Shown one piece after another: positions 3,042 to 54,170 of a stretch of 54,761 nucleotides of DNA (position 1 is its first letter; the number at the start of each line of letters is the position of its first letter). Source of the stretch: Candidatus Gastranaerophilales bacterium. GTDB taxonomy: Bacteria; Cyanobacteriota; Vampirovibrionia; Gastranaerophilales; Gastranaerophilaceae. Where the stretch lies: the NCBI GenBank assembly GCA_947587615.1, contig CANPYC010000012.1:1-54761 (forward strand). The letters are read 5' to 3'. The translations under genes and the position numbers were made by a program. The notes beneath the pieces were generated by a model. That model was not told the DNA's origin, searched no databases, and saw only the letters and a list, made by a program, of their open reading frames with translations.

Positions 3042-3650
3042 ATGAAAAAATTATTGGTATTATCACTGGTTTTAATTTCATATAATATTGCAAGGGCTGA
3101 AAGCTTATTTTCTCTCAATGCTTCTCAAAATGCCATGATTGAGCCAAAAGCACTGTTTTCATCCGTTAGAGCAAGAGGTGTAGGGGATTTAGTTTCAATA
3201 ATTATAGATGAAACCCCAAGCTCAATTGATTCCGGGACTTATGAAACAAATAAATCAAGTTCACTCGCTGAAAATTTTACAAACGCACTTAACACAATAT
3301 TTAAAACCAAACTCAAAGACTCCTTAAACGGTACTAACGGAGATTTAGACGTATCCGGTTCAACTCAGGTAACAAGAAACATGACATTAACCGATAGCGT
3401 TGTAGCTCAAGTTGTTCAGGTTTTACCGAACGGAAATTTACTTGTGCAGGGTAAAAAGAGCCTTGTAAGCCAAAATGAAAGAGTTGATTTAATAGTATCG
3501 GGAATAGTCGATCCCAGATGGATAAATCAAACAGGAGAAATTTTATCAAGCCATGTAGCTAATCTTCAATACGCTATGAGCGGCTCGGGCACTGTTTCAA
3601 GAGGTCAAAACGAAGGTATATTGGATAGAGCAATCAGAACCGTATTCTAA
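3042..3650 (+). CDS. flgH: Flagellar L-ring protein FlgH
   Basis: This 202-residue protein carries FlgH hallmarks: RARGVGDLVSIIIDETPSS near residue 45, the VVQVLPNGNLLVQGKKSL core, and SGIVDPRWINQTGEILSSH towards the end. It forms the outer-membrane L ring, so the cell should have an outer membrane. FlgH is normally a lipoprotein with a Cys after the signal peptide. Here the signal peptide ends near ARAES and the whole protein has no cysteine, so it cannot be lipidated in the usual way. It starts two bases after flgA and is followed closely by flgI. Confidence 0.94.
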   Translation: MKKLLVLSLVLISYNIARAESLFSLNASQNAMIEPKALFSSVRARGVGDLVSIIIDETPSSIDSGTYETNKSSSLAENFTNALNTIFKTKLKDSLNGTNGDLDVSGSTQVTRNMTLTDSVVAQVVQVLPNGNLLVQGKKSLVSQNERVDLIVSGIVDPRWINQTGEILSSHVANLQYAMSGSGTVSRGQNEGILDRAIRTVF

Positions 3651-37805: not shown

Positions 37806-38315
37806 TTATCCTATAACGGGTGCAGTGAATGTTCTTTGAGCCAGTTCTTTATCAAGAGCATAAAGAGCGTGTTTATCATTTCCTATCATTTCAAGTTGTG
37901 CTAAAACACCGCCAACGTTTGATTCTTCTTCAACTTGTTCTTTAATATACCAGTTAATTAAAATCATCGCAGCTCTGTCGTTTGTTTCTTGAGCAACATC
38001 AGCTAAAGCATTAATTCTTGAAGTTACATATTGCTCATGAGCTAAAATAGCTTTAAATACTTCATAAGGACTTTGCCAATCACATTGCGGTTTATCAATT
38101 GCTTCTAAGGTAACTTTTCCGCCCCTTTCAATAACATAATCAAACATACCCATAGCATGAGCGTGCTCTTCCTGTATTTGAACATCCATCCAATTAACAA
38201 AACCTTGCAAATTTAAGTTTGCAAAATATGCTTTCATAGATAAATAAAGGTATTCGGAATACAATTCCTTGTTAATTTGATCTAAAAAAGCACTTTGCAT
38301 TTTTTCGCTTATCAT
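37806..38315 (-). CDS. ftnA: Bacterial non-haem ferritin
   Basis: This 169-residue protein is a four-helix ferritin: INKELYSEYLYLSMKAYFAN, QIQEEHAHAMGMFDYVIERG, and NWYIKEQVEEESNVGGVLAQ contain the expected Glu and His ferroxidase ligands. It oxidises and stores iron in a 24-subunit shell and suits the rubrerythrin in this window as an oxygen-stress partner. A strong AGGAGG site precedes the ATG. Confidence 0.96.
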   Translation of the reverse strand: MISEKMQSAFLDQINKELYSEYLYLSMKAYFANLNLQGFVNWMDVQIQEEHAHAMGMFDYVIERGGKVTLEAIDKPQCDWQSPYEVFKAILAHEQYVTSRINALADVAQETNDRAAMILINWYIKEQVEEESNVGGVLAQLEMIGNDKHALYALDKELAQRTFTAPVIG

Positions 38316-43303: not shown

Positions 43304-44773
43304 TTATATAATATTTACGCCAAAATTTTCCTTTAGTGCTTCAATAGCATGCGGATTAATTAAAGGGTAAGGACAAGAAGCAATATTAAGCTCAATACCT
43401 TCACTTAAAAGAGCTAAAAGTACAAATAAATTAGATAAATTGCACCAACTGAAAAACAGAGTAATTTTAACACCTTTTTGTTTTAATTTTTCAATTGATT
43501 TGAATAAAATTCCGTTTTCTAAAGGACAGTTAAAATTTATTATTTTTACGTCTTTATACGCTTCAAATTCAAAGTTTTTCGCTAAATCACCCGCAATCAG
43601 AACAATTCTTTCGTCGCTGAAGTTTTCGACGATATTTTCAATTTTTTCTTTGTCGTAGGAAATATTTAAACTTTTGTTTTCTTCATCAGAATTGAAGCCC
43701 TCAAGCTGTAAAGCGGATTCAATTACGGGAGTGTAATTTCCGTTTTTGATATCAAAAACCTTTGAAAAAGAAATCAGCTTATTTGAAAAAATCTCGCCTC
43801 TGTACAGGCTGTCGATTTTTTGAATAAAATTTTTCGTTATGAGAATTGACCCGGGGAAAACGGAAAAATCATACTGTGCATTATCGCTTCCCAAGTGCCC
43901 TTTTAAATAAGGGTTATTTTTAAAATACGGGTAAAAATGAGCTAAAATTAACGGCCCGTTTGTATAAACATTAATTTTTTCTTTGGGTTTAATTTCTTCA
44001 AGCAACACCAAAAGCGCTTCAAGTTCGTCGGGGTCATCACCCGAAACTAAAATTCCGTGTCCTTTTTTGGGGCTTATTTTTATTATTGCATCTTGTTTTT
44101 GTCCGTATCTTTTTTGCAAAATATTATCCGAATTAAAAATAATTTCTTTTGCAATTAAAGAAAACTCGTTAATTCTTCTGATTATTTTTTCGCATCTTAT
44201 TGAGTATGAATTTGTAAGAGCAAAAAATCTTAAAATTTCAAAATCATATCTGCTAAAGCTCTCATCAAGTTTTTTAGCTTTAACAACGCTGATTGCGCAT
44301 AGTCTTGCAAATATTGTTATAAGTTCAAAAAGATTGTGTTTATTTTTATCCTCGTTTTTTTGCTTAATTGTTTGAATACTTTGCGCATGTTTGATTATTT
44401 GAGAAATTGTTGTTTTTTCGTTTATTTCAAAATTTGTGTTTATGATTTCACACGGAAATTCATTCTCTGAGCAATAAGAGAGATATTTTTGTTTGATTTC
44501 TTTTTTTGTTAAATAAAGCTTTATTAAAAAATTAAGATAATTTTCCTGATTAAAACTTGTGTTAATAAGAAAAATCGACAGAGCTTCAATACAAAAAGCC
44601 ATTGCGGAATTGTTTGTCATGCCAAATTCTTTTAATTTAACCAGATAGAAAGAAATTTCTCTAACTTCACTCAAAAGAACAGAGTACAAGGCGCTAACGC
44701 TCGGATGAATAGAGCAAACGCCTTCAAAGCGGCATGAGTTTTTTTCGGAAATATTTTTAAAATAGTTGTACAT
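43304..44773 (-). CDS. Hybrid-cluster-protein (Hcp/prismane)-like protein lacking cluster ligands
   Basis: The 489-residue sequence follows the Hcp fold in order: GHGILVSGDDPDELEALLVL, INVYTNGPLILAHFYPYF, FSVFPGSILITKNFI, and the ending FFSWCNLSNLFVLLALLSEG, then NPHAIEALKENFGVNII. Compared with Hcp as I know it, metal ligands are replaced: SGHD is SGDD, HGE is NGP, TTNC is TKNF, GGCDG is AGDL, and the WxEQK block is WCNLS. The N-terminal four-Cys motif is reduced to two scattered Cys. It is thus unlikely to be a hydroxylamine or NO reductase. The family link is good; the function is unknown. Confidence 0.75.
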   Translation of the reverse strand: MYNYFKNISEKNSCRFEGVCSIHPSVSALYSVLLSEVREISFYLVKLKEFGMTNNSAMAFCIEALSIFLINTSFNQENYLNFLIKLYLTKKEIKQKYLSYCSENEFPCEIINTNFEINEKTTISQIIKHAQSIQTIKQKNEDKNKHNLFELITIFARLCAISVVKAKKLDESFSRYDFEILRFFALTNSYSIRCEKIIRRINEFSLIAKEIIFNSDNILQKRYGQKQDAIIKISPKKGHGILVSGDDPDELEALLVLLEEIKPKEKINVYTNGPLILAHFYPYFKNNPYLKGHLGSDNAQYDFSVFPGSILITKNFIQKIDSLYRGEIFSNKLISFSKVFDIKNGNYTPVIESALQLEGFNSDEENKSLNISYDKEKIENIVENFSDERIVLIAGDLAKNFEFEAYKDVKIINFNCPLENGILFKSIEKLKQKGVKITLFFSWCNLSNLFVLLALLSEGIELNIASCPYPLINPHAIEALKENFGVNII

Positions 44774-47667: not shown

Positions 47668-48201
47668 ATGTCTAAATGGGTATGTGCAGTTTGCGGTTAT
47701 ACTGTTGAAGGAGAAAAGGCACCCGAAAAATGTCCTCAATGCGGAGCAACAAAGTTTAATGAAGCAACAAACAGCAAAGGCTGGGCTTGTGAGCATGTTG
47801 TAGGTATCGGAAAAGATGTAGATTCAACAGTTTTACAAGGTTTAAAAGACCACTTTAACGGTGAATGCTGCGAAGTAGGTATGTATCTTGCTATGTCAAG
47901 AGTGGCTGATAGAGAAGGCTACCCTGAAGTTGCTGAAGCTTACAAGAGAATAGCTTTTGAAGAAGCTGAACACGCTGCAAAATTTGCAGAATTATTAGGT
48001 GAAGTTGTAACTCCCTCAACAAAAGAAAATTTAAGACTAAGAGCGGAAGCTGAAGCAGGCGCTTGCCAAGCTAAGCTTGATATTGCAAAACGTGCTAAAG
48101 AACTTGGACTTGATGCAATCCATGACACGGTTCATGAAATGGCAAAAGATGAAGCTCGCCATGGAGCTGCATTTAAAGGATTATTAGAAAGATTATTCTA
48201 A
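47668..48201 (+). CDS. Reverse rubrerythrin (rubredoxin domain first)
   Basis: This 177-residue protein starts with a rubredoxin-like iron site: [20 protein letters not shown], then QCGATKF. A ferritin-like di-iron domain follows, with [40 protein letters not shown] and [19 protein letters not shown]. Classical rubrerythrin has the opposite order. It reduces peroxide in anaerobes. AAAGGAGA precedes the ATG, and a strong terminator lies 26 bases after the stop. Confidence 0.95.
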
Positions 48202-48288: not shown

Positions 48289-48906
48289 TTATTTCGAACA
48301 GCAATCAACGCAAGGTAGTTTGTAAACTGCTCCATATTTTACAATTTTTTTCATTTTTCTTTTTTCTTCTCTTTTAAATCTTCGATAATCGCTGTATTGG
48401 TTTTTGCAAAGGTGTTTTTTAACATCCTTAGAATAATCGCTGATTGTTTCTTTTATATCTCTTTTAATGTCTTTTAAGTCGTTAATATCATCTTTAGCGC
48501 ATTCATTTTCGCATTCTATGTTTTCTAAAACTTTATTTTTTTGAATGCGATATTTTGTTTGCAGTACTTCCATATCTGCCTTGAATTTTTTATACAGCTC
48601 ATCAATACAGTTTTCCTGATTTCTTGTTAAACAGAGCTCTTTTTTCATTTTCCTGTAATGCTTATCAAAATAACATTCGTTATAAATGCAGTATTCATCA
48701 TCCTCTTCTAAGCACTTATCGCATTTTTTATCGTTTTTGTAAATTGTATCTTCTTTACAAGAATCAGTCTTTTTATCACAATTGCATTGCGAATGTTTTT
48801 CGCAAGGCGATTTTTCAGGCATTTTTTGATTACACGAAGAGCAATTTGCACTACTGACAGAGGTTAACAAAAGCAAACCTACGATTGTTAAAAGAGCTTT
48901 TTTCAT
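48289..48906 (-). CDS. Cys-rich exported protein with Spy/CpxP-like helical region
   Basis: This 205-residue protein has a clear signal peptide (MKKALLTIVGLLLLTSVSSA). The mature part has about 18 cysteines: ten within some 60 residues (NCSSC, QCNCDKK, KKCDKCLEE, NECYF) and a C-terminal LPCVDCCSK. The central helices, MKKELCLTRNQENCIDELYK followed by KFKADMEVLQTKYR, match the LTxxQ pattern of periplasmic Spy/CpxP chaperones and metal-sensing relatives. Role is unknown: the many Cys suggest metal binding or disulfides. A single gene, convergent with rubrerythrin. Confidence 0.78.
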   Translation of the reverse strand: MKKALLTIVGLLLLTSVSSANCSSCNQKMPEKSPCEKHSQCNCDKKTDSCKEDTIYKNDKKCDKCLEEDDEYCIYNECYFDKHYRKMKKELCLTRNQENCIDELYKKFKADMEVLQTKYRIQKNKVLENIECENECAKDDINDLKDIKRDIKETISDYSKDVKKHLCKNQYSDYRRFKREEKRKMKKIVKYGAVYKLPCVDCCSK

Positions 48907-49445
48907 TGTATAAGCCTTTCTTAATTTTACATTTTAAAAATATCAGATTGCTTGGGGTTTAAAAATTATCCGATTGGGTAAAAATCGGAATGATTTTAAA
49001 GAGCTTGTGTGTGAAAATTTGATTTTGTTTTAATTAATGAAGATTGTAGTTAAAAACTTGTCTCACTCGTCATAGCACCAATTCTACCCCGCCACCCTTA
49101 GCGAAGTTTAGCCTTGCCGGTCCGCAGGGTGGACTTCAATCCGCCGTTTATGGCTGCTCTTTCAAATAGTTATAATCAACCGTAGTTTTAGGATGGTAGA
49201 CTAAAGTCTACCATACAGTTTTGTTTTCGAACCGTCTTTGTAATCACATGAAAAACAGACACTCCCCCGTAATCAAGTCGGGCTTGAAATCTTGACAAAA
49301 GTTCAACAATATGCATGCTTGTTTTTATTTTTTTCAGTGTTAATATGAAATCAATAAAATGCAATCGGAATTTTAAATTTTGCTATACGGATATATAAAA
49401 TCTATACTGCGATTATAAGAATCTATGCTATCGGAAAGGGAATAT
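48907..49445. repeat. Gene-free region with an 85-bp repeat element upstream of the large exoprotein
   Basis: No gene is seen in these 539 bases. The element at 49128-49212 begins with a decayed GGTGGACT-type palindrome (49128-49145) and ends with the perfect GGTAGACT-AA-AGTCTACC palindrome (49195-49212). It matches the reverse complement of 54350-54434 at 76 of 85 positions by hand alignment. A TTGACA hexamer (49292) lies further right but no convincing -10 box follows at standard spacing. Confidence 0.75.
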
Positions 49446-52400
49446 ATGAGTAAAAATTGCTCTAAACACTATTTAAAATGTAATTTTAAAAGGAAACTAT
49501 CCGCATTTGCAGCACTATTGACCTTTATATCAATATCGGCTTTAAGCCCCACTGCTTACGGTGATGTTACAACTTCAACTCCGAATGATGTTGCAGGTCG
49601 TACCGGAAACATGGATGTAACAAGCAAGCACCAAAACGATTTAAATGTAGATTTAAAGGGTGGTATACACGGTGATGTCGGTCAGGTTGACTGGTGGAGA
49701 TTTGATGTTGCACAAAACGGGCATGTTAACTTCGGTTTTTCAGGTCTTGCTCAAACAATAATAAATCGTGTTTTAGGCGGTAAACCTTCTGATATTATGG
49801 GACAAATAACAAGCTCTTGTATAGAAAAAGGTTGCACAAGCTATAATACAACATCTAAAGTAATTTTAATCAACCCTGCGGGTGTTATGTTCGGTCCGGG
49901 TTCTTCGGTTGATTTAAATTCGTTTACGATTTCTACTTTTGATTTCAAAAATTCAAAAAATTTAAAAGATTTTGAAGGCGATACGGAAGGTTTGGCAAAA
50001 TATAAAGAAGATGTACTTAACAAGTTGTCAGGTTATCCCGATACAAACGGTGTAGAAAATAAATATTACGGTGATATTACTTTTGACGCAGCCGACTACG
50101 GAAGATTTAAAGAAGCAGGCACTTTTGATAAAACAAGAGAAGGTGCAACTTTAACTGAAGAAGACTATAAAGCAGGCAAAACGGGAATTGAATTTAACGG
50201 TTCAAAACTGAATATCAATAAATCGTTTGCAGCAGTCGCAGACCAAATTAAATACAAAGATTCCGTATTAAAAACCGCTGAAAACTATAACTATCGTCCT
50301 GAAAGCAGCAAACAATCCTATTCAAACGCAAGATTTGTAACTGCGGACGGTGTAACTTTCAGATATTTAGGAAACGGCTATATAAACAGTCATCAGGTTA
50401 AAAAAGATGAAAGAAATGTTCAAAGAACAATGGTTTTTGACAATTCTACTCAAAGAAGCGGCGAAACTGCAACTAAGCCTGATATTACAACGGGACATCT
50501 TGAAATTATAAACAATTCTCAAGCTGACGGTTCAAAAATTACAATGAGAGAAACTATTGTAAGAGGTACAAAACTGGTTAACCATGAGGACGGTTCAATT
50601 TATATAGAATCTAATCATGATGTTGAAATTGCTAACTCAAGAATAGAATCCGTTAATACAATAGCAACATCGGGCGATGAATCAAAAAGCACGGAAGATT
50701 TAACAGGCGGAAGAATTACCGTTAACGCAGGCGGCAACTTAACAATTGCAGACAGTCTGTTAAAATCGGCAGGAACATCCAAAACTCAGGCAAATAGCGC
50801 CCAAGAGCTTGCAGCGCTTGACGATGCTAAAAGGCAAAACTTACTTGATGACATTCAAAATTCAGGTAAAATTACTCTAAACGGCGGTAAAACGAATACC
50901 CAAGGAACTGTTAACATAACCGATACGAAAGTTCTTGCAAAGGGTGATGTCGATATTACGGCTGCGGGTGATGTTAAAATTGAAGCAACGGAAAGAAACA
51001 AAACTTTAATTCAAAGTGAAAACGAATTAAACAACGAAAGCAAAAATATCAATATTAAATCAGGCGGAGATATATTTGTCAACAAATCAGATATAGTTGC
51101 ACAAAATAACGTTACCTTAGAAGCACTTGACAGTAATGGAAATTATGGAAATCATCATATCGTATTAAACGGACACAAAAATACTTCAAATAACGGTATT
51201 GACACTGATTCTAACAGCTTAGAAGGTGATACTTTAATAATTGCAAAAGACGGAAAATTATCTCTCCATTCGGGTTCAACAATTATTAACAATGCTTCTT
51301 TAGCTTACAACGACTTATCCTTCTATAAAGAAACATCTGATGATGACTTTAATCATATTAATAACGTGACAATTTCTCGTGATTCAACATTTACCAATTT
51401 TAACTCTGGTAATGATATAGATATCAATACAAACGGTTCAATTACTTTTTCAAACAATGCAACAGTTAAAACCGCAGATATAGATTTAAAATTTGAAAGA
51501 GTTGAAGCCGAAAACCCCAACTCTGCAATAAGAGATGACGGTAGTGCAAGTGCTGTTAATTATACAAAAACAATTACTTCTAAAACTGCACATGATATAA
51601 AAGCTCGAAGCACTAAAGGAAATATCTTTGCAAGAAAATCTAAAATTGCAGCCCAAAACGATATTTCTTTCACAACCGAATATAATTCAAGGTTGCAAGA
51701 AGCAAATAATGTAAATATTGACTCTAATTCAACAATTACCGCAGGCAACGATTTGACGCTAACTTCAAAAGGCGGCTCGGTAAATGTTAAAGGAGGAAGT
51801 GAATTAAAGTCGGGCAATGATACAAATATTAACGCTCAAAACGATGTTAATATTACAAACGAAAGCTCACTTACCGCTCAAGGTGATATAAATATTAACG
51901 CTAAAAATAATATAGTATATAATAATTCTTCCTCAGTATCTAAAGGCGCTACAACGCTTAAAGCAGGCAAGATTATTGATGTAATTAAATCAAAAATCCA
52001 TGCAGGCGATACAGCAGCCGAAGCTGACAAAGAAAAACTCGCAATGCAAGCCGCTGAACAAATTTCAATAACAGAATCGGATATTTTATCAACAGGTGAT
52101 GTTGATATACTTGCTGTTGATGAAGCAGGTAACTTTACAGGTGATATTTTGGTTAATTTTAACAAAACAGAAAACGGCGGCTTTACTAAAAACCCGAATG
52201 TTGAGCTTGGAAACACAACAATTGTTGCGCAAGGCGGCACGCTTACAATGCAAGGTAAGCATACGCACATAGCAAACGGTTCTTTTGGTTATAAGGATTT
52301 ATCCTTCTATAATAAAAACCAAAACGACGCAGAACATACAAACAATCTTTTGATACAAGGTTCTTCAACGTTTTCTCAACTTGCTGAAGATGGTACGGTT

Positions 52401-54170
52401 AGCGGCGATATAAACATTGAAACAAACGGCTCAATTAATTTGTATAGTGCGGATTTAAAAACTTCCGATAATTACAAAGAAAATATTACACCTAAAGAAG
52501 CAGCTAATATCAAAATTACTTCAACGAATGATAATGTAAATGCAATGTTAACAAATTTAAAAGCTGAAAATGATGTTACATTAACCACTTTAGCAGACAA
52601 TAAAAACATATCATTCCAAGGCACAACCATTGAAGCAGGTAACAGCGCAACACTTGAAGCTAAAGGCGGCAGTGTTCTTATGAGCGATTTTCCGTTGGTA
52701 AACAAAGCTTCAGGTGTAAACGCAAAAGATATTAACGTAGTTCAAAAAAATGATATCGTATTTGGCGAAAAAGCAGGTCAAAACGGTGTTACAATAAGCC
52801 AATCAACAAGCTTTACAGCCGATAACGATATTAAATTTGAATCAACGCAAGGTAATATTAAAGGTGAAAAAGAAACTCTGCCTACAATTTTATATGGAGA
52901 CAGATTATCCTTCTTGGCAAAATTGAAAAATATATTTACATCAAAAGGTTCTCTAAAATCCGTAAATGTTGACTATGTTGCACAAGAAGGCAATGAATTT
53001 AGCGCACAAAACGATATTCAATTTGTTAATTCAACCTTTAGCGCTCCTTCTAATACCGTTAAAACAGAAAATGGCGATGTAATTTTGAACAATCACAAGA
53101 TTATATCTGCAACAGGTGACGGCAGCAGCGATTCGCTTGACGCTTTAACAAATACAACAATTACCGCTAAAGGAAGAGTTACAACTAAAGACATAACAGG
53201 AAATCTTGATAAAACAAATGCTGAAAAAACACATAAATTCTTACGTGATGTAGATGTAGATGAAAACAAAAACTATGACACTGAAAACGATACTGTTTTA
53301 GATGTCGGTAATACTAAACTTGTTGTTAATACAAAAGTTGACGCTCAAGAAGGAAATAACAATAAAAACGGAAGTATCGAGCTTAAAGTTAAAAATGCAC
53401 ACAATAAAGAAGCGGGACTTGAGCTAACTGCTGAAAATACAAATTATGATAATCAAATTGAAGAAGGTAGAGGCCCTGAAATTTCTTTAGATGCAGAGGA
53501 TAAAAAATTATCAATATCTAAATTAATTTCTGATAAGTTATCAATTAAAAAAGATAATAAACTCTATGCTGCAAAGACAACTTTAACGCCTGAACAGTTA
53601 AAAGGCTTCTCTGATGAACAAAAACAAGACCCAAGAGGATATATTGAAGTTAGAGATAAGGGCGGATTTAACCTTGACCCTTCGTCAGGCTATCCCGGAA
53701 ACTCCGGTGATGAAGCTCAAAGAGACAACTATAAATCTGAAGGCGGTGTAGATTATAAAGAACATATCGACTTCACGCAAAGCGAAACAAGAACCGAAAC
53801 CGATGAATCAGGCACCGAGTTTTCCGTTAATGACTACACAGACAGAACCCATGTTGTTGGTTTTGAAGACCAAGAAGAAGATTCTTCCGACTTTATGCTA
53901 AGATACACAAAAGAATATCAAGCAAAAACGGAATGTGAACCGATACCGGATATCGGCAGAGATAATGTCGACGAGTTAGAAGGCTTTAGAGATATTGAAG
54001 GCAATGCTTCTTTGGTTGAACAGCTCAAAATTCCTCGTGAAGTAAAAGAAGTGTCTAAAGAATCAAGGGTTGTTGATTCAACGGTTGATCAAAGTTCAAA
54101 TATAATGGCGGCTGCGGCTAAAATTGATATACAGGAAGATGAAGACAAAAAGAAAGATAGTGAAGAATAA
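49446..54170 (+). CDS. Filamentous haemagglutinin-type exoprotein (TPS domain, beta-helix repeats)
   Basis: This 1574-residue protein has an extended signal peptide (hydrophobic LSAFAALLTFISISALSPTA, cleavage near AYG). The haemagglutination/TPS secretion domain follows, with GHVNFGFSGLAQTIINRV and VILINPAGVMFGPGSSVDLN (NPxG motif near residue 142). A long beta-helix region has repeats such as GDININAKN, NDVNITN and NTNGSITF. Two related blocks of about 140 residues are encoded near 51.06-51.48 and 52.04-52.47 kb. The last 250 residues are acidic with no beta-barrel, so a separate TpsB pore is expected; none is in the window. ATG 49446 has AGGGA five bases before it. Confidence 0.88.
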   Translation: MSKNCSKHYLKCNFKRKLSAFAALLTFISISALSPTAYGDVTTSTPNDVAGRTGNMDVTSKHQNDLNVDLKGGIHGDVGQVDWWRFDVAQNGHVNFGFSGLAQTIINRVLGGKPSDIMGQITSSCIEKGCTSYNTTSKVILINPAGVMFGPGSSVDLNSFTISTFDFKNSKNLKDFEGDTEGLAKYKEDVLNKLSGYPDTNGVENKYYGDITFDAADYGRFKEAGTFDKTREGATLTEEDYKAGKTGIEFNGSKLNINKSFAAVADQIKYKDSVLKTAENYNYRPESSKQSYSNARFVTADGVTFRYLGNGYINSHQVKKDERNVQRTMVFDNSTQRSGETATKPDITTGHLEIINNSQADGSKITMRETIVRGTKLVNHEDGSIYIESNHDVEIANSRIESVNTIATSGDESKSTEDLTGGRITVNAGGNLTIADSLLKSAGTSKTQANSAQELAALDDAKRQNLLDDIQNSGKITLNGGKTNTQGTVNITDTKVLAKGDVDITAAGDVKIEATERNKTLIQSENELNNESKNINIKSGGDIFVNKSDIVAQNNVTLEALDSNGNYGNHHIVLNGHKNTSNNGIDTDSNSLEGDTLIIAKDGKLSLHSGSTIINNASLAYNDLSFYKETSDDDFNHINNVTISRDSTFTNFNSGNDIDINTNGSITFSNNATVKTADIDLKFERVEAENPNSAIRDDGSASAVNYTKTITSKTAHDIKARSTKGNIFARKSKIAAQNDISFTTEYNSRLQEANNVNIDSNSTITAGNDLTLTSKGGSVNVKGGSELKSGNDTNINAQNDVNITNESSLTAQGDININAKNNIVYNNSSSVSKGATTLKAGKIIDVIKSKIHAGDTAAEADKEKLAMQAAEQISITESDILSTGDVDILAVDEAGNFTGDILVNFNKTENGGFTKNPNVELGNTTIVAQGGTLTMQGKHTHIANGSFGYKDLSFYNKNQNDAEHTNNLLIQGSSTFSQLAEDGTVSGDINIETNGSINLYSADLKTSDNYKENITPKEAANIKITSTNDNVNAMLTNLKAENDVTLTTLADNKNISFQGTTIEAGNSATLEAKGGSVLMSDFPLVNKASGVNAKDINVVQKNDIVFGEKAGQNGVTISQSTSFTADNDIKFESTQGNIKGEKETLPTILYGDRLSFLAKLKNIFTSKGSLKSVNVDYVAQEGNEFSAQNDIQFVNSTFSAPSNTVKTENGDVILNNHKIISATGDGSSDSLDALTNTTITAKGRVTTKDITGNLDKTNAEKTHKFLRDVDVDENKNYDTENDTVLDVGNTKLVVNTKVDAQEGNNNKNGSIELKVKNAHNKEAGLELTAENTNYDNQIEEGRGPEISLDAEDKKLSISKLISDKLSIKKDNKLYAAKTTLTPEQLKGFSDEQKQDPRGYIEVRDKGGFNLDPSSGYPGNSGDEAQRDNYKSEGGVDYKEHIDFTQSETRTETDESGTEFSVNDYTDRTHVVGFEDQEEDSSDFMLRYTKEYQAKTECEPIPDIGRDNVDELEGFRDIEGNASLVEQLKIPREVKEVSKESRVVDSTVDQSSNIMAAAAKIDIQEDEDKKKDSEE

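Follow-up and report, generated by a model that had tools for sequence, protein, structure and literature searches.

The function of hybrid cluster protein (Hcp) was for decades a matter of debate. Structures and ligands of class I and class III Hcps have been described (PMC10210160; PMC10502027), and the protein considered here, called HcpL, is comparable above all to the class I Hcps of D. vulgaris (1e2u) and M. thermolithotrophicus (8cnr) and to the class II Hcp of E. coli (7de4), with which it shares the fold (about 440 residues), the order of the motifs and the cysteines C15 and C21. It differs from both classes in lacking the hybrid-cluster ligands and half of the cubane motif, in the deletion of the C434 segment (in the genus of the window) and in the new residues C444, C467 and H293; the partner gene also differs, being a glutaredoxin gene for HcpL in other genera and hcr for the E. 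coli Hcp. The class III Hcp of M. marburgensis (7e0l) has the core domains of the superfamily in common with HcpL; its ligands are all intact but the helical middle region is missing, whereas in HcpL that region is present and the ligands are gone. Elsewhere in the Hcp/CODH superfamily cluster ligands also vary in nature, as in Ni-CODH groups whose active-site motifs are altered (PMC6344411); unlike these, HcpL is a member of the Hcp branch, and none of its hybrid-cluster ligands is left. A literature search found no paper linking Hcp with Gastranaerophilales or Melainabacteria.

The hcpL gene lies in a stretch of 54,761 nucleotides from a Candidatus Gastranaerophilales bacterium (the window; Table 1). 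Its reading frame runs open over 489 codons with no internal stop and is full length, as the preliminary description had it. The Pfam Prismane profile matches the protein above its cut-off, and the NCBIfam Hcp models match it at 8e-47 with scores far under their curated cut-offs (145.8 bits against 360.8 for TIGR01703; 160 against 367 for NF003658). Prismane matches in Gastranaerophilales that score under the Hcp-model cut-off should accordingly not be labeled hydroxylamine or NO reductase. The GH57 gene mentioned in the preliminary description does adjoin hcpL in the window, but none of the relatives examined within the genus has one at this place; a functional link was therefore discarded and the neighbor is regarded as incidental.

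An AlphaFold2 model of HcpL was built from 18 aligned orthologues of the genus. Confidence falls below pLDDT 50 at residues 1–23, 70–74, 320–323 and 325–336, the first of these segments containing C14 and C20. The best solved matches of the model are the Hcps of D. vulgaris, E. coli, M. thermolithotrophicus and D. desulfuricans, with Foldseek E-values of 1e-20 to 2e-17 (1.2e-20 for 1e1d) and VIA Z scores of 26–27 over 434–447 residues (27.3 for 1gn9, with an rmsd of 3.5 over 435 aligned residues). They are followed by class III Hcp (VIA Z 22–23) and then by CODHs (Z about 12–13). The predicted structure thus shows the class I Hcp fold to be retained over about 440 residues.

The ligand positions were placed through the canonical Hcp motifs, by alignment with canonical Hcps from related genomes in which all motifs are present; the numbering is that of D. 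vulgaris Hcp. In this alignment all seven hybrid-cluster ligands (H244, E268, C312, C406, C434, C459 and E494) are missing from the HcpL of the window, and K496 is also replaced. The substitutions listed in the preliminary description (His to Asp, Glu to Pro, Cys to Phe, the Cys lost in AGDL and the loss of the E/K pair) all agree with the alignment, but the list was incomplete, since it overlooked the replacement of C459 by P417 and the loss of C434, which has disappeared together with the whole strand-helix segment that bears it. Similarly, the N-terminal cysteine motif was described as broken, and the four-Cys motif of the cubane [4Fe-4S] cluster is indeed incomplete: C3 and C6 are gone, but C15 and C21 remain as C14 and C20. 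The comparison was extended to 129 distinct HcpL sequences from Candidatus Gastranaerophilales and 32 canonical Hcps, and the same losses were found across the family. All 32 canonical proteins carry seven of seven hybrid-cluster ligands, whereas 104 of the 129 HcpL sequences carry none and no HcpL carries more than three, which places the loss beyond chance. As far as sequence can tell, HcpL is unable to build the hybrid cluster and hence to perform Hcp chemistry, and its [4Fe-4S] cubane is very probably lost as well. The term pseudoenzyme, when applied to HcpL, denotes the loss of the Hcp metal site and does not in itself imply inactivity.

Table 1. Position of hcpL and of its substituted, retained and newly conserved residues in the window (HcpL and canonical counts refer to 129 and 32 sequences).
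Feature	Position	Strand	Basis
HcpL, 489 aa	43304..44773	(-)	ORF; Prismane 2.7e-17; AlphaFold2 mean pLDDT 80.9, pTM 0.83; Hcp fold Z 27.3, 435 residues
C14, cubane ligand C15, kept	44732..44734	(-)	122/129 HcpL
C20, cubane ligand C21, kept	44714..44716	(-)	122/129 HcpL
C101, conserved Cys, helical region	44471..44473	(-)	117/129 HcpL; 2/32 canonical
D246, replacing hybrid-cluster ligand H244	44036..44038	(-)	alignment
P274, replacing ligand E268	43952..43954	(-)	alignment
H293, new conserved His at canonical Asn	43895..43897	(-)	108/129 HcpL; canonical N 31/32
F316, replacing ligand C312	43826..43828	(-)	alignment
L397 (AGDL), replacing persulfide ligand C406	43583..43585	(-)	alignment
P417, replacing ligand C459; C434 segment deleted ahead of it	43523..43525	(-)	alignment
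C444, new conserved Cys at canonical Y493	43442..43444	(-)	124/129 HcpL; canonical Y or F
N445, replacing ligand E494	43439..43441	(-)	alignment
S447, replacing K496	43433..43435	(-)	alignment
C467, new conserved Cys at canonical T/S/N, GPTxPAF loop	43373..43375	(-)	123/129 HcpL; co-lost with C444

Four of the conserved cysteines appear to be organized in pairs. Both C444 and C467 are present in 123 of the 129 HcpL sequences, neither in five and one alone in a single sequence; for C14 and C20 the corresponding figures are 120, five and four. On a tree built without the columns concerned, C444 changes four times and C467 follows in nearly all pairings, which amounts to about four independent co-loss events, a number with which a sign test cannot reach 0.05. 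The losses of C14 and C20 sit in other lineages and do not accompany those of C444; thus, by their distribution, C444/C467 and C14/C20 behave as two separate pairs, each varying as a unit. C444 and C467 each lie three residues past one of the two predicted strands (436–441 and 461–464, respectively) of a strand-helix-strand unit. They sit next to the place formerly held by E494 and would therefore be near each other in space.

HcpL is conserved within its group. A search of 97 relatives recovered orthologues in all 27 other genomes of the same genus (48–62% identity; one of them is split across two contigs), and HcpL is present in most of its family. In codon comparisons most of the closest pairs have a dN/dS of 0.05–0.15 and a few pairs have higher values, up to a maximum of 0.57, which shows, at the level of codons, that the gene is maintained under purifying selection. 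TIGR01703 gave a match in 229 of the 238 near-complete genomes of the order, above the cut-off in only 89; about 140 of the 238 hold the eroded form without a true Hcp (in a few of these the match may be a true-Hcp fragment), while true Hcp accompanies HcpL in many other genomes. In the window genome no true Hcp was found with TIGR01703 and HcpL is the only form. Outside the order, the best match in a 194-genome sample of the class did not exceed 345 bits, and four out-of-order matches checked for the ligand motif (L072 and L202–L204) are all canonical. HcpL is nevertheless dispensable, since some genomes without hcpL keep the glutaredoxin discussed below. Some genomes carry more than one copy: a tandem array of three HcpL genes occurs at positions 3120–7985 of L053 (genome G038), and two HcpL genes were seen in L048 (genome G042).

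The origin of HcpL was addressed with a tree of 78 proteins in which the eroded forms came from family f1 together with families f6 and f7. The eroded forms of the order fall into one group separate from canonical Hcps (SH-aLRT 99), and the tree shows HcpL as a single clade within the order; its branches are long, so the exact point of attachment should not be pressed. Five partly eroded Hcps were seen in the two sister families f6 and f7 (L062, L071, L090, L092 and L093) and might be intermediates of ligand loss. L062 retains all four cubane cysteines and three of the seven hybrid-cluster ligands; L071 and L090 retain two of the seven. By their residues these forms are consistent with stepwise ligand loss, and they hint at how a metal enzyme could have given rise to a metal-free relative.

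Outside the genus of the window, a glutaredoxin gene is located directly upstream of hcpL and on the same strand in 69 of 102 cases, usually within 20 nt, compared with 0 of 32 for canonical Hcp. Gene order thus shows a putative grx-hcpL operon of two genes in most related genera. The common type of linked glutaredoxin matches GST_N_3 and Glutaredoxin, and a second type, which occupies the place upstream of hcpL in four further loci, best matches Glutaredoxin. As 58 of the 65 common-type cases share one ancestral context, with wecB upstream (and rpsG/rpsL seen downstream in 46 of the 58), the adjacency is partly inherited; in the other seven the two genes have relocated yet remain side by side. 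In the three genomes checked (G028, G033 and G034) PF00462 finds its best match in the hcpL-linked glutaredoxin itself. In the genus of the window, on the other hand, no glutaredoxin is linked to the HcpL gene, which stands alone, and the single PF00462 match of the window genome is located away from hcpL. All eight HcpL-less genomes that were checked retain the common-type glutaredoxin, indicating that this protein has another role too; in five of the eight (L206, L207, L208, L210 and L211, coded to three genera), grx adjoins rpsG and hcpL is absent. The window genome carries a gene for glutathione synthetase, as do nearly all genus members searched. Some of the hcpL-linked glutaredoxins (L057, L064 and others) carry CPYS in place of CPYC, as would be in keeping with a monothiol mechanism.

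The conserved cysteine pairs and the glutaredoxin linkage of the sister genera favor thiol redox chemistry. The most likely reading, to which we give about an even chance, is that HcpL, a selectively maintained class I Hcp paralogue devoid of the hybrid Fe-S-O cluster, has been repurposed as a thiol-based redox protein served by glutaredoxin; that it is metal-free, that its chemistry is of the thiol type and what it acts on we infer. C444 and C467, beside the emptied cluster cavity, and/or C14 and C20 could cycle between thiol and disulfide or, alternatively, carry glutathione, NO or persulfide, and glutaredoxin with glutathione would reduce or load the pairs. A more specific and more doubtful proposal, which we put forward tentatively, is that in the Hcp scaffold a dicysteine center by the same cavity has replaced the Fe-S-O catalyst and acts with glutathione and glutaredoxin on, for example, S-nitrosothiols, persulfides or glutathionylated proteins. 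An S-nitrosothiol or persulfide as the substrate is a guess by analogy, taken from roles proposed for Hcp (PMC10210160). Against a thiol redox role stand the lack of glutaredoxin linkage in the window's own genus, the few HcpL members without C444/C467 or C14/C20, the eight genomes that keep glutaredoxin without HcpL and the partly inherited adjacency.

The main rival of thiol redox chemistry is a small metal site, for which we would give a rather low probability: HcpL may bind a smaller alternative center through C444 and C467, with or without H293, or through C14 and C20 of two subunits in the manner of the interfacial Fe-S cluster of CODH, the glutaredoxin being an Fe-S carrier. The two conserved cysteine pairs and the new conserved histidine would suit such a center, as would the CPYS motif of some linked glutaredoxins and the precedent of the CODHs, whose related fold carries a cluster of the interfacial kind (PMC10502027). 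However, the two pairs are lost independently, which argues against one four-Cys site; H293 is replaced by Gln in 17 of 129 sequences and is retained in L059, L063 and L064 despite the loss of C444 and C467; class I Hcps are monomers; and no invariant third or fourth ligand was found. It is far less credible that a hybrid-type cluster is still assembled through migrated ligands. The fold is retained and C444 adjoins the E494 position, and new cysteines do lie beside a former ligand position, as judged from sequence and strand topology, but such side chains fill the site only partially, as two residues cannot replace seven; none of the seven ligands is left in the window protein, the C434 segment is deleted and the Cys, His and Glu residues that are still conserved are too few.

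Loss of catalysis altogether must also be weighed. Pseudoenzymes commonly become partners or regulators of other proteins, and the presence of a true Hcp next to HcpL in many genomes would fit a non-catalytic scaffold for that enzyme or for another stress protein; we hold this to be unlikely, because about 140 genomes, the window's included, have HcpL without a canonical Hcp, and because conserved cysteine pairs would be superfluous for a mere scaffold. As for a decaying pseudogene, the long branches and the absence of the gene from some genomes could be read in this way; the open frames of the genus orthologues and a dN/dS far below 1 rule it out for practical purposes. The preliminary description had preferred repurposing over decay, and the 27 of 27 orthologues, the purifying selection, the Hcp fold and the shared losses speak for that choice.

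With its fold kept, its ligands dropped, a cysteine pair gained and a glutaredoxin operon in sister genera, the HcpL family may serve as a natural test of what the Hcp scaffold can do without its cluster. If thiol redox chemistry at the former cluster cavity is the correct reading, an active site would have been converted from metal to thiol and the change fixed throughout a family of gut bacteria, while sister families still hold partly eroded forms.

Other genes of the window were noted in passing. A ferritin-like gene (37806–38315, minus strand) and a rubrerythrin-like gene (47668–48201, plus strand), both of iron or oxidative-stress type, lie within about 10 kb. A Cys-rich protein of 205 aa with a signal-like start (48289–48906, minus strand) is possibly secreted and metal-binding, and a protein of 1581 aa with repeated segments (49425–54170, plus strand) resembles haemagglutinin-type surface proteins.
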